Shown piece by piece: positions 5,395 through 34,374 of a stretch of DNA of 45,465 nt (positions are counted from its first letter, which is position 1; the number at the start of each line of letters is the position of its first letter). A program made the position numbers and the translations under genes. The DNA is from Flavobacteriales bacterium (GTDB taxonomy: Bacteria; Bacteroidota; Bacteroidia; Flavobacteriales_F; PHOS-HE28): NCBI GenBank assembly GCA_019912395.1, contig JAIOIH010000074.1, positions 1 through 45,465 on the forward strand, in the 5' to 3' direction. A model generated the notes under the pieces. It searched no databases. It saw only the letters and a list, made by a program, of their open reading frames with translations, and was not told the origin of the DNA.

Positions 5395-5603
5395 ATCGCG
5401 TCCAGAACGAAATCTGCGTAATTGGGCTAAAATCTGCGGAAAAAAACAAGACCACTACCTACAGCGATCGCAACCCGCAACCCGCAACCCGCAACCCGCA
5501 ACTCTTCCAACACATTTGCACTCAATCCGCGAAAATTGGGCTCAGATCTGCGGAAAAGCCACTCTGCGCTCTCTGCGGTAAAAATCGGCATCTGCGGTGA
5601 ATC
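5395..5603. repeat. Intergenic low-complexity repeat region (TCTGCGGAAA words and CCGCAAC heptamers)
   Basis: This spacer has no credible gene. It holds repeated words: aaatctgcg at about 5409 and 5431, tctgcggaaaa at about 5434 and 5548, and ctctgcgctctctgcggtaaaaa near 5562. There is also a run of five 7-base units (cgcaacc) at 5469-5503. It lies between the convergent ends of the DUF4296 gene and the epimerase gene. The phrasing is typical of intergenic repeats scattered through many Bacteroidota genomes. Confidence 0.75.
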
Positions 5604-12262: not shown

Positions 12263-12346
12263 CAAGAGGTGCCGAGTACTGAGTAGCCGTCGTCAAGCGC
12301 GGCATTGTACTCGGTACTCAGTACCCAATACCCGGTACCGATCCAT
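12263..12346. repeat. GTAC-rich palindromic intergenic element, copy A
   Basis: The 33 bases at 12307-12339 begin GTACTCGGTAC and end ACCCGGTACC. They match 23735-23767 at 30 of 33 positions (differences at unit positions 12, 14 and 28). A partly inverted arm (ccgagtactgagta) lies at 12274-12287. The element sits between the divergent glycosyltransferase and trmB genes. Confidence 0.8.
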
Positions 12347-12394
12347 CAAACTCCGTGTTTCCCTGTGTCCCTGTGCCTCTGTGGTTTTCCTTAC

Positions 12395-15611: not shown

Positions 15612-15965
15612 TCACGGATGCTTTCGGATCCTCACCTTGTTCTTGTCGATAACGGTGAATGCCCCTTTCAATTCGTTGAGGTGATGTCCGAGCGCCATCA
15701 ACAAACGGGCAACCTAGTCCGGTGGAGGAAAACCGTCCAGCCGGATCAACAGCACGCCTGAGTGAGGAGAACCATTGGCGAATACTAGATCTCCAAAGTC
15801 CTTGTCCTCCGTGATCAATACGCTTTTACCTGCATTCGCGATTTCAAGAACACGCTCATCGTGGGCACCGAGGTCGGATTCATGAATGTCTTGCACAGTG
15901 TGACCAGCGGACCGTAGCGCCCTTATGATATGGCCGTCCACGCTTTCATCCGCGATGAAGTCCAT
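15612..15965 (-). pseudogene. DUF5615 PIN-like toxin interrupted by an in-frame amber codon
   Basis: The frame starts with MDFIADESVDGHIIRALRSA and continues with VLITEDKDFGDLVF, the acidic active-site pattern of DUF5615 PIN-like ribonucleases. At 15714-15716 a TAG codon stops it after 83 residues. The same frame then continues for 33 codons (ending at the TGA at 15612-15614) with LNELKGAFTVIDKNKVRIR, the usual C-terminus of this family. Full length would be about 117 residues, as expected. It is therefore a nonsense-mutated toxin gene, a truncated active form, or (less likely) a suppressed one. It follows the DUF433 antitoxin gene by nine bases. Confidence 0.85.
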
Positions 15966-15974
15966 ATCGCAGGG

Positions 15975-16208
15975 CTACGGAATTGCAGGATACACAATGT
16001 CGTTGTTCACCGCGTCAACCGCAAATAACTGTGCTGCCTTAATGCTGTCGGCCGTGAGGCCCGGGTAACCTGCCAAAAGATCTTCGATACGTTCACCCAA
16101 CGCGATCTTTTGCAGGATCAGGTAGACAGGAACGCGGCTACCCCGGAAGCAGGGCTTTCCGAGCATGACCTCTGGGTCTGATGTGATATGATCACGCCAA
16201 TCGAGCAT
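15975..16208 (-). CDS. DUF433 antitoxin
   Basis: A 77-residue protein with the DUF433 pattern: WRDHITSDPEVMLGKPCFRG, RVPVYLILQKIALGERIEDLL and YPGLTADSIKAAQLFAVDAV, a winged-helix-like DNA-binding fold. DUF433 proteins pair with DUF5615 PIN-like toxins and are thought to bind both toxin and promoter, so the operon is probably self-repressed. The pair here is in the usual order with a nine-base gap. The toxin partner carries a premature stop. A perfect TATCTTTG element ends seven bases before the ATG. Confidence 0.88.
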   Translation of the reverse strand: MLDWRDHITSDPEVMLGKPCFRGSRVPVYLILQKIALGERIEDLLAGYPGLTADSIKAAQLFAVDAVNNDIVYPAIP

Positions 16209-16259: not shown

Positions 16260-17282
16260 TCAATCCGTGCGGTACGACGTGGTCTCATCCACGCCCTCCA
16301 CCATATCGATGTAGCTGTTGTACCGGCTCGCGGCGATCTCGCCTTTGTCCAGCGCCTCCAGCACCGCACAGCCCGGCTCCTGGATATGCTTGCAGTCCCC
16401 AAAGCGGCATTCACCCCGCAGCGCGAAGAACTCCGGGAACTGGTCCACGATCTCCTCTTGCGTCATGTCCACCAGTCCGAAGCCTTTTACTCCGGGGGTA
16501 TCGATGATGAAGGTGGGCGATGGTGATGGGTGAACAGTGATTGAGGACTTGGACTCAAGGCTCAAGGACTCAGGACTCGCGACTGCATTCAACTGAAGCT
16601 CGAACATCTGCGCCGCCGTAGTGGTATGCTGCCCCTTGTCCGTGGAAGCACTGATCTCCAAGGTGTGCAGGTCCAGCGATGGATCGATGGCATTCACCAG
16701 CGTGCTCTTTCCAACGCCGCTATGCCCCACCAGTAGCGAGACCTTGCCGCGCAGCAGCGCCTTCACCTCTTCCATGCCCTTGTGCTTCAGCGCGGAAGTG
16801 ATCAGTGTGCGGTAGCCGATGGTCCGGTAAACGTCCTCGTATTCCGCAAGCAGGCCCAGCTCGTCATCGTCGTAGTCGTCCACCTTGTTGAAGATGATGA
16901 TGGGCGGGATCTTGTATGCCTCGGCCGTCACCAGCACACGGTCGATGAAGCCATGGCTCGTTCGCGGCCTGGCCAAGGTCACCATCACAAGGCACTGGTC
17001 CATGTTGCTGGCGATCACATGCTTGTGGTGCGAGAGGTTCACCGACTTGCGCACGAGGTAATTGCGCCGCTGATGCAGCTTGGTGATGGCCCCAACATGC
17101 TCGTTGCCGATCACCTCGGCGGCAGGCATGAAATCCACCAGATCGCCCACGGCCAAAGGGTTGGTGGTACTGTAGCCCTTGATGCGCAGCTTGCCCTTCG
17201 CGATGCACGTATGCAGTACGCCATCCTCGCCGCGTACGATGTAGCGGCTGCCGGTGGAGCGCATGAGGAGGCCGGTGGGCAT
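16260..17282 (-). CDS. rsgA: Ribosome small-subunit-dependent GTPase A with internal insertion
   Basis: A 340-residue circularly permuted GTPase that helps mature the 30S subunit. An OB domain (about 1-75) precedes the permuted G motifs: G4 NKVD (132-135), G1 GHSGVGKS (186-193), G2 region KGQHTTT (216-222) and G3 DTPG (261-264). The C-terminal zinc site is C292, C297, H299 and C305. Between MFEL and FIIDTPG, residues 230-257 are an extra Ser/Pro-rich stretch absent from ordinary RsgA. It is encoded by DNA (16512-16595) rich in GGACTC/CTCAAGGACT words that also occur in the intergenic repeat at 34335-34368. The ATG at 17282 restores the usual N-terminal G-STGS start; a CACCTTTG element ends only four bases upstream. 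Confidence 0.92.
   Translation of the reverse strand: MPTGLLMRSTGSRYIVRGEDGVLHTCIAKGKLRIKGYSTTNPLAVGDLVDFMPAAEVIGNEHVGAITKLHQRRNYLVRKSVNLSHHKHVIASNMDQCLVMVTLARPRTSHGFIDRVLVTAEAYKIPPIIIFNKVDDYDDDELGLLAEYEDVYRTIGYRTLITSALKHKGMEEVKALLRGKVSLLVGHSGVGKSTLVNAIDPSLDLHTLEISASTDKGQHTTTAAQMFELQLNAVASPESLSLESKSSITVHPSPSPTFIIDTPGVKGFGLVDMTQEEIVDQFPEFFALRGECRFGDCKHIQEPGCAVLEALDKGEIAASRYNSYIDMVEGVDETTSYRTD
16512..16595. repeat. In-frame GACTC-rich insertion inside rsgA
   Basis: An 84-base, 28-codon insertion between the G2 and G3 regions of rsgA. On the plus strand its right half reads ggactcaaggctcaaggact, then caggactcgcgactgc. The same words (gactcaaggact) appear in the intergenic element at 34357-34368. 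Confidence 0.7.
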
Positions 17283-20699: not shown

Positions 20700-21245
20700 A
20701 TGTACGCCATTGTAGAGATCGCCGGCCAGCAATTCAAGGTGCAGGCCCCCCAGAAGCTGAAAGTGCACCGCCTCGAGCTTGAGGAAGGGAAGCATGTGGA
20801 GCTCGGTAATGTGCTCATGGTGAGCGATGGTGCCAAGACCAGCATCGGAACGCCCGTGGTGGACGGTGTCCGCATCGCCGCCAAAGTGCTGGCCCACAGC
20901 AAGTCCGACAAGGTGATGGTGGGCAAGAAGAAGCGCCGCAAGGGCTATCAGAAGCTCAACGGCCACCGCCAATACCTCACCGAGCTCTGGGTGGAGGCCA
21001 TCCTGGGGAAAGGGGAGAAGTTCGATGCCAGCAAGAGCACTGCTCCTGCCGTGGTGCCCTACACCCCAGCGGTGAAGAAGACCCGGGAAACGGCTGAAGC
21101 CGCCCCGGTGAAGAAGGCCCCCGCCAAGCCGAAAGGTCCCGCGACAGCGGGGAAGGCCCCGGCCAAAAAAGCCGCCGCCAAGAAAGCGCCGGCCAAGAAG
21201 GCGGCAGCAAAGAAGGCCGCACCGAAAAAGGACGATAAGAAATAA
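20700..21245 (+). CDS. rplU: 50S ribosomal protein L21 with Lys/Ala/Pro-rich tail
   Basis: A 181-residue protein. Residues 1-103 are L21: MYAIVEIAGQQFKV, then KKKRRKGYQKLNGHRQYL, which binds 23S rRNA. From about 110 on there is a low-complexity basic tail with repeated AKKAAAKKAPAKKA units, like histone H1. Ordinary L21 is about 103 residues. As I recall, Flavobacteriia L21 carries a similar tail that ends in a helix-hairpin-helix domain; here the tail ends in KKDDKK without that domain, which is found on L27 instead. It forms an operon with rpmA, 37 bases downstream. Confidence 0.95.
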   Translation: MYAIVEIAGQQFKVQAPQKLKVHRLELEEGKHVELGNVLMVSDGAKTSIGTPVVDGVRIAAKVLAHSKSDKVMVGKKKRRKGYQKLNGHRQYLTELWVEAILGKGEKFDASKSTAPAVVPYTPAVKKTRETAEAAPVKKAPAKPKGPATAGKAPAKKAAAKKAPAKKAAAKKAAPKKDDKK

Positions 21246-23652: not shown

Positions 23653-23674
23653 GCAGGAGTTGTGTTATTGCAAT

Positions 23675-23767
23675 GGTACAGGGTATTGGGTACCGAGTAC
23701 AGGGTACAACGCCGCTCGTAGTGCCGGGTACCACGTACTCGGTACCCTGTACCCAATACCCTGTACC
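23675..23767. repeat. GTAC-rich palindromic intergenic element, copy B
   Basis: A perfect 19-base inverted repeat: 23675-23693 (GGTACAGGGTATTGGGTAC) pairs with 23749-23767 (GTACCCAATACCCTGTACC), with a 55-base interior that itself holds more GTACTCGGTACC words. The 33 bases at 23735-23767 match 12307-12339 at 30 positions. It fills the gap between the sigma gene and the plug-domain gene. Confidence 0.85.
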
Positions 23768-23772
23768 AACCG

Positions 23773-34279: not shown

Positions 34280-34334
34280 TGTGGTGGTTGCTCGCCAAGG
34301 TAGGGTACCAACGAGAATGCACCGTCAGTCCAAC

Positions 34335-34368
34335 GGACTCCCGACTCCCGACTCCCGACTCAAGGACT
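34335..34368. repeat. GACTCCC tandem repeat
   Basis: Three 7-base units (gactccc) at 34336, 34343 and 34350 followed by gactcaaggact. It lies between the nfuA-like gene and K3 and shares words with the in-frame insertion in rsgA. Confidence 0.75.
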
Positions 34369-34374
34369 GATCCC

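Follow-up and report, generated by a model that had tools for sequence, protein, structure and literature searches.

A gene for the ribosome-associated GTPase RsgA in a Flavobacteriales genome contains in-frame DNA that resembles an intergenic repeat, which raises the question of whether such repeats can enter an essential-type gene and become part of its protein. In the window (the whole stretch of 45,465 nucleotides analysed, from the genome here designated G000), rsgA lies on the reverse strand at 16260..17282 and encodes a small-subunit biogenesis GTPase of 340 amino acids, recognised by Pfam (RsgA_GTPase, E 6e-50), by NCBIfam (TIGR00157, score above cut-off) and by structure matches. The insert, QLNAVASPESLSLESKSSITVHPSPSPT, is encoded on the same strand at 16512..16595 and is delimited by alignment, period and predicted structure. 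The initial annotation placed 28 extra in-frame residues between the G2 and G3 motifs and held that the frame and essential motifs are kept, and both observations are confirmed. Relative to solved RsgA chains (2 of 10 matches listed), the match stops at residue 227 ('gqhtttaaqmfe') and restarts at 255 ('ptfiidtpg'), leaving ~27 surplus residues between G2 and G3. GHSGVGKS, NKxD, DTPG and C292/C297/H299/C305, which we take to be the zinc site, are all invariant in an 11-row RsgA alignment. In the predicted model (11 sequences, mean pLDDT 70.2), strands 224-229 and 257-261 flank the insert, which lies in a loop with pLDDT below 50 at residues 234-253.

The insert DNA has a period of seven, consisting of (GAGTCCN)n followed by ATCACC-like words in the order GAGTCCT GAGTCCTT GAGCCTT GAGTCC and then TCAATCACTGTTCACCCATCACC. 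On the reverse strand, the heptad array (GAGTCCT GAGTCCTT GAGCCTT GAGTCCAA), whose word is designated W4, spans 16549..16578, and a flank of CACC/ATCACC words spans 16512..16544. Identity at lag 7 is 38/77 in the 84-base insert, a value reached by 0/100000 codon shuffles; the best-lag statistic over lags 4-14 gives p 5e-5 (20000 shuffles). An unaltered GAGTCCT array runs into TGA in all frames of its strand; in the window's insert, an eight-base unit and an altered unit avoid an in-frame TGA and keep the frame open.

The words that the initial annotation found common to the insert and an intergenic repeat at 34335-34368 are indeed present in both. CTCAAGGACT has two sites in the window, at 16561 and 34359 (0.07 expected; 1/100 shuffles gets two), and GGACTCNNGACTC with at most one mismatch has six matches, all in the RsgA insert or the 34335 repeat (0.72 expected; the largest of 100 shuffles is three). 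This repeat is an intergenic W4 array (GACTCCC; 34325..34371, no strand assigned) that is kept in the orthologous spacer of G022 with one unit altered. The closest relatives of the insert in the genome, however, lie elsewhere: a whole-genome search with the 84 bases identifies C8:39069 (E 2.9e-4) and C24:2364 (E 0.013), each 73-74% identical over ~65 bases. Both are in spacers and are composites of (GAGTCNN)n beside CACCAATCACC-like words, with CACC/ATCACC words after the W4 array as in the insert.

RsgA was found in 52 of 58 genomes searched, and the best 30 of the 52 loci were aligned, comprising 28 from the same genus and 2 from other families (22 other-family matches were left out). A period-7 array occupies the RsgA site in 13 of the 28 aligned same-genus genes, those of the window's genome (G000), G022, G004, G006, G019, G028, G032, G002, G017, G018, G033, G025 and G008. 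At this position the remaining 15 have 10-23 loop residues, compared with 5 in the two aligned outsiders; the insertion is lineage-specific, one of the two outcomes between which the initial annotation had proposed to decide by such an alignment. The word differs between species: GTTGTCA-type (W1) in G022, G004, G032 and G028; GTTCGTA-type (W2) in G019, G006, G002 and G017; GAGTGGC-type (W3) in G018, G033, G025 and G008; and GAGTCC (W4, GAGTCCT) in the window's genome alone among the 13. Among lags 2-14, lag 7 scores highest in all inserts but one (12 of 13). Against mononucleotide shuffles, eight of the 13 fold at z <= -3.9 and four at z -0.4 to -2.2, while the window's copy (z +0.5) is not palindromic; the arrayless short loop of G030 also folds beyond shuffles (z -3.1).

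With the insert removed, the RsgA tree groups nine of the thirteen array-bearers in one clade (100/99), whose sister G020 is insert-free. The GAGTGGC cases fall in a separate clade (99/99) plus G018, the placement of which is not settled by this tree; G023 and G026, members of the GAGTGGC clade, have a short loop resembling a derivative. By parsimony, the site would have been filled at least twice and the word would have changed within clades. CAGTTG at 16590..16595 (reverse strand) is a possible leftover of a W1 (GTTGTCA) hairpin such as the sister species G022 has at this position.

Triple-unit patterns of the four words were counted in the spacers and genes of 39 genus genomes, with the backward-read pattern as control. 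The W1 pattern has 887 matches in 30 genomes (control 18), including 209 in G032, 119 in G004, 76 in G022 and 35 in the window's genome, and 0 in G008, G020, G023 and G025. The W3 pattern has 276 matches in 20 genomes (control 32, of which 18 are in G021), with 75 in G018, 69 in G008, 22 in G025 and 21 in G033. The W4 pattern has 190 matches in 11 genomes (control 13), 74 of them in G022 and 18 in the window's genome. The W2 pattern has 48 matches in 10 genomes, seven of which belong to the nine-species clade, and shows no excess over its backward-read control in the 39 genomes (48 vs 53, the control matches being mostly in other genomes). Because the W2 control matches are as numerous as the pattern, the pool test has little force for the four genomes with W2 in RsgA; G002 has three W2 matches in all, one being RsgA itself.

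The search of the genome for the word family, also proposed initially, shows that the insert's word recurs in spacers and that the word at RsgA also belongs to the arrays counted genome-wide in 13 of 13 genomes, with 0/100000 label shuffles as strong (kinship ignored). Matches remain when RsgA's own units are subtracted where listing or count size allows (2 of 3 in G002). Genomes with an RsgA insert have 22-221 array matches and those without have 0-59 (p 5e-5, kinship ignored). The presence of a word in RsgA, LdcA and DnaE tracks its genome count (p 4e-4 for W1, 9e-7 for W2 and 3e-5 for W3; p 0.04 for W4, from one genome) in tests that ignore kinship and use genome counts that include arrays within the tested genes. 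Exceptions occur in both directions: in G007, G011 and G059 a gene contains GTTGT units but the whole genome has 1-3 matches, and the array-rich G000 (35 GTTGT matches) and G002 (40) have no GTTGT units in the tested genes. In G008 and in G018, RsgA, LdcA and DnaE are all of GAGTG type within one genome.

Another possibility is that RsgA has an ancient disordered loop under selection, which resembles a repeat by chance of its composition. Every one of the 28 aligned members of the genus has at least 10 residues at the site vs 5 in the two outsiders, as such a loop would have it, yet the period-7 signal is far past codon shuffles, most array-bearing relatives have hairpins there and the same words occur in unrelated genes; we consider this explanation very improbable. 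It is hard to hold for the 13 array-bearing species and may apply to the short loops. The initial annotation took unrelated DNA at the same position in relatives as the sign of an old loop. Relatives do have unrelated DNA there, but in the other 12 array-bearers it is again a repeat found genome-wide, and the RsgA site is therefore no old loop of ordinary sequence but one that takes up repeats time and again.

The triple-unit arrays in spacers consist of tandem 7-base units, as heptanucleotide repeats do. A lag scan of 432 kb of the window's genome finds 13 lag-7 stretches, none at lags 5, 10, 11 and 13, and 4-11 at several other lags. A scan of 400 kb of G004 finds 6 lag-7 stretches, so the arrays are scattered and not dense. 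Across Bacteroidota, 46 of 296 genomes and 27 of 140 genera (the window's own included) contain the GTTGT triple pattern; thus, heptads in spacers or genes extend beyond the window's genus. In G350 the backward-read GTTGT control reaches 130 matches, and a few other Bacteroidota genomes have tens of them; other heptad words are therefore abundant in these genomes. Period-8 stretches (GATCAGAT, GAGGAAGA and others) number 8 in the window plus L039-L058 of G000 and 6 in L059-L078 of G004, with the same cut-off as for period 7.

RsgA is not the only gene with such arrays. Among 101 sampled loci, 73 arrays of at least three units were found, many of them within long open frames. Of 23 array-bearing frames, 17 have a Pfam family and 6 do not and are counted as non-coding. 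The assigned frames include DnaE (G018, G019), Mfd, RadA, PyrD, a ROK protein (in which the array is short), RsgA of G022, LD-carboxypeptidase, WbqC and methylmalonyl-CoA mutase (two each), two glycosyltransferases and, in two species, a radical-SAM/TRAM enzyme that is presumably MiaB-like. The mutase case of G006 is less clear, its array being at the junction of two mutase-like stretches in one frame. In-frame arrays thereby occur in at least ten gene families, including DnaE (three loops), LdcA, RadA, PyrD, WbqC, MutB and Mfd, and comparison of RadA and PyrD with solved structures shows ~20 extra residues at the array. The RsgA insert looks like one case of a wider route from spacer DNA to protein.

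A lag test with a threshold of 24/35 positions at every lag and no word chosen beforehand gives a strong lag-7 stretch in 26/30 DnaE, 7/30 RsgA, 7/30 LdcA, 4/30 RadA and 4/30 PyrD genes. In these five genes, lags 4, 5, 6, 10, 11 and 13 give 0-1 each (DnaE 1 at each), lag 9 gives 0-3, lag 12 gives 0-2 and lag 14, twice seven, gives 1-12. Lag 8 gives 11 for DnaE and 2 for PyrD, which agrees with the octads. The share of arrays inside genes, obtained with a simple codon-based gene caller for 77 arrays at 104 loci (sites from listings and samples, hence non-random), differs by word: 11/20 for GAGTGG (10 without the weak call L124), 5/15 for GTTCG, 5/19 for GTTGT and 0/23 for GAGTC, the last including rows L058 and L091 for one site and some orthologous rows in G000 and G022. 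With L124 excluded for its weak gene score, W3 (10/20) and W4 (0/23) differ at Fisher p 1e-4. A sieve by stop codons was considered as the full reason for the coding share of each word and was rejected, the reverse strand of W4 being stop-free. Non-genic arrays lie between tandem (35), convergent (14) and divergent (6) genes, with one at a contig edge. Hairpins and single arms compare at 16/34 vs 4/31 (p 0.003) in hand-sorted classes that do not sum to the 77 arrays, and we give this comparison no weight.

Unrelated words often fill one loop in different species. Across 30 genomes, a single loop of LdcA contains GAGTGGC hairpins in seven, a GTTGTC-type hairpin in G007 and GGGCCAC-type hairpins in G009 and G010, and is short or of other sequence elsewhere. 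PyrD (30 genomes, classes assigned by eye) has GAGTGGC hairpins in 2, CACCAAT hairpins in 3 and GATCAGA-type octads in 4, and a short loop in most of the others. RadA has GAGTGGC hairpins in 3 of 30, and DnaE (30 genomes, some partial) has three hypervariable loops with many kinds of repeat, judged by eye. Insert peptides include QLNAVASPESLSLESK and the VASGEWR type, the latter from a GAGTGGC array, and a RadA query matched RsgA of three species via the common insert peptide. The DnaE loops (L190-L219, 30 genomes) contain heptads, octads, VDPLGRP-type and LTPGPSP-type elements that vary by species.

Repeats are hard to assemble and most of the genomes are fragmented, so an artefact of metagenome assembly could be imagined. 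The pattern is nevertheless present in genomes of 4 and 7 contigs (G004 and G024), close species agree at several arrays, and the array-bearing frames stay open apart from two single stops, one in RsgA of G032 and one in LdcA of G061; an artefact is thus extremely improbable.

Spacers of the window show the same exchange of words. A large intergenic heptad hairpin with the words GTACAGG/GTACCGA lies at 23673..23769 (no strand assigned), where the orthologous spacer of G022 has a GTTGTC (GTTGTCA) hairpin. At 12303-12389, a heptad array (GTACTCA/GTACCCA) followed by an octad array (CCTGTGTC/CTCTGTGG) is absent from the shorter G022 spacer, and a (CAACCCG)n array at 5460-5512 corresponds to unrelated sequence in G022. 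Spacers of G000 and G022 thus differ by exchange of whole hairpins or by absence, with no clean insertion. GTTCG units by GTTGT arrays are in phase 0 in 20 distinct contexts, in the trivial phase 3 in 19 and elsewhere in 6; since the seven-base phase is kept, the two words share arrays in a way that resembles in-register copying or conversion. GAGTG units by GAGTC arrays keep phase in 1/3 distinct contexts (1/7 undeduplicated). A single-arm GAGTGNN array of 470 bases and ~62 units lies in a divergent spacer of G018 (C7; L116 1433-1902).

Inspection by eye of PyrD, RadA and the 23.7 kb spacer revealed neither clean ends in an empty/filled pair nor a target-site duplication, and the PyrD and RadA loops, which include no close empty/filled pair, differ too much between species to reveal ends. 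No single site therefore separates insertion from local growth. Arrays might originate locally, with slippage building the array in place and template switching at hairpins (quasipalindrome correction) adding the second arm, no donor being needed. The missing clean ends suit this origin, as do inner loops that differ between copies, W3 arms that have no conserved inner motif, and a loop sequence that by eye seems common to clade-B RsgA genes with and without arms. It leaves unexplained, however, why the words in RsgA, LdcA and DnaE track the other arrays of the genome and why one word occurs in several genes of G008 and G018, and we regard it as unlikely.

Short hairpins in large numbers, often placed at the ends of genes, are common to REP/RAYT systems and the arrays described here. 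The arrays differ in that neither a fixed outer motif nor linkage to Y1 genes was found. In G058, 18 of 25 loci are hairpins and 7 are single arms, and 14 of 20 GTTGTC hairpin loops match an inner end motif of CTGCCGATG or GCGTGATGG type, which speaks for a moving unit; among GAGTGG (W3) arms, neither a conserved inner motif nor a fixed outer end was found. A REP-like hairpin moved by the genome's Y1 transposase (RAYT) would agree with the hairpin form, with the G058 end motifs and with the correlation between Y1_Tnp count and array load (rho 0.48, p 0.012 in the 27 genomes with completeness of 90% or more; rho 0.59 in all 39; kinship ignored in both). It is quite unlikely, given that 1/20 Y1 loci has a period-7 stretch within 2.1-3.4 kb, which is about chance, and none has a W1-W4 array, that G021 has 36 W4 matches and no Y1 match whereas G023 has 2 Y1 matches and no W1-W4 match, and that the arrays have no fixed outer end.

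The insert is thus probably a copy or descendant of the genus' short-period repeats, with words drawn from the genome's pool and tolerant loops that refill. Its source would be the repeats, with units of 7, sometimes 8, bases, that this Flavobacteriales genus has in its spacers and genes. New arrays would take their word from the pool elsewhere in their own genome, supplied in trans, and would land or grow in spacers and genes alike. Genic arrays would persist only if they are stop-free in the needed frame and lie within a tolerant loop; because survival is limited in this way, few loops would fill repeatedly, and a filled loop could later be rewritten with other words. Since 7 = 1 mod 3, a perfect direct heptad array encodes the same cyclic heptapeptide in all three frames, and a stop-free word therefore fits any frame. 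The GTTGTCA/GTTCGTA-type hairpin may have been gained once in the ancestor of the nine-species clade, and in the window's lineage the GAGTCC + CACC composite would have replaced it. Movement may proceed by copying in trans, either by template-switch repair from other arrays or by ectopic conversion, and repair synthesis copied from other arrays would appear to fit the facts best. The insert is presumably near-neutral for the protein. It is possible, although doubtful, that a genome-wide, word-specific heptad-writing machinery writes the species' current words, copied in trans, to spacers and to permissive loops of essential proteins (the replicative polymerase among them) and exchanges one word for another at a site; if so, spacer DNA would continually become species-specific protein segments.

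The initial annotation likened the insert to the coding palindromes of Rickettsia. Coding palindromes are known from Rickettsia, Wolbachia and Methanocaldococcus jannaschii (PMC10969869, PMC2996958), and the Rickettsia palindromic elements (RPEs) are described in the cited passages as families of ~150 bases with a conserved peptide (PMC10969869). The likeness holds for the way in which they work: according to the cited passages, RPEs too are genome repeats that are in frame in many unrelated housekeeping genes and present elsewhere, often as hairpins and typically within unstructured segments (PMC10969869, PMC2996958). The family is a different one. The copies described here form no ~150-base family with a conserved peptide; their length, loop and word vary and they share 7-base units. 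As for the palindrome itself, strong folding (z <= -3.9) characterises eight of the 13 RsgA inserts, and the window's own copy, at z +0.5, has no hairpin. In further contrast to RPEs, the unit here has 7 bases, the arms are direct arrays, the word varies by species, one loop takes unrelated words across species, and the host is a Bacteroidota lineage.

Word replacement has a parallel in the P6b loop of the Nostoc tRNA-Leu(UAA) intron, which has a heptanucleotide stem of Class I (TDNGATT) or Class II (NNTGAGT) according to the cited passages (PMC4476775). There too, hairpin arms consist of 7-base repeats and the word class has been replaced at the same site in several lineages, but the repeats are in intron RNA, not in a protein-coding sequence, and the cited passages give two classes only (PMC4476775). 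The likeness of the words counted here (GTTGTNN, GTTCGNN, GAGTGNN and GAGTCNN) to NNTGAGT is by eye. Direct TAACTGA heptamers are reported, in the passages cited, from marine Beggiatoaceae, Cyanobacteria and five Bacteroidetes (PMC4679880). They are likewise patchy intergenic 7-base arrays, with one two-unit set near the end of purC; unlike the arrays described here, they are mostly intergenic and use a single word, and no coding-insertion programme is described in those passages (PMC4679880). Judged by titles and the beginnings of abstracts, none of the open-licence papers surveyed describes heptad arrays in Bacteroidota coding loops. What appears to be new relative to these papers is the union of the repeat-in-frame, word-replacement and heptad traits in coding loops, each trait alone being already known.

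A Bacteroidota lineage is thus added to those with coding-palindrome-like arrays, here in recurrent loops of dnaE, rsgA, radA and pyrD. It thereby becomes testable by what route non-coding repeats turn into protein and which loops can accommodate them, and 7 = 1 mod 3 offers a plain explanation for the aptness of heptad arrays to enter genes. In well-studied enzymes, the loops show where insertions are tolerated, and such variable peptides should be annotated as repeat-derived and not as conserved function.

Two other features of the window were observed. Immediately downstream of rsgA, at 15714-16208, Pfam identifies a DUF5615 (PIN-like) and DUF433 pair, which has the appearance of a toxin-antitoxin system. 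A lysine/alanine-rich stretch with a 15-base period at 21152-21237 seems, by eye, to encode a histone H1-like tail.
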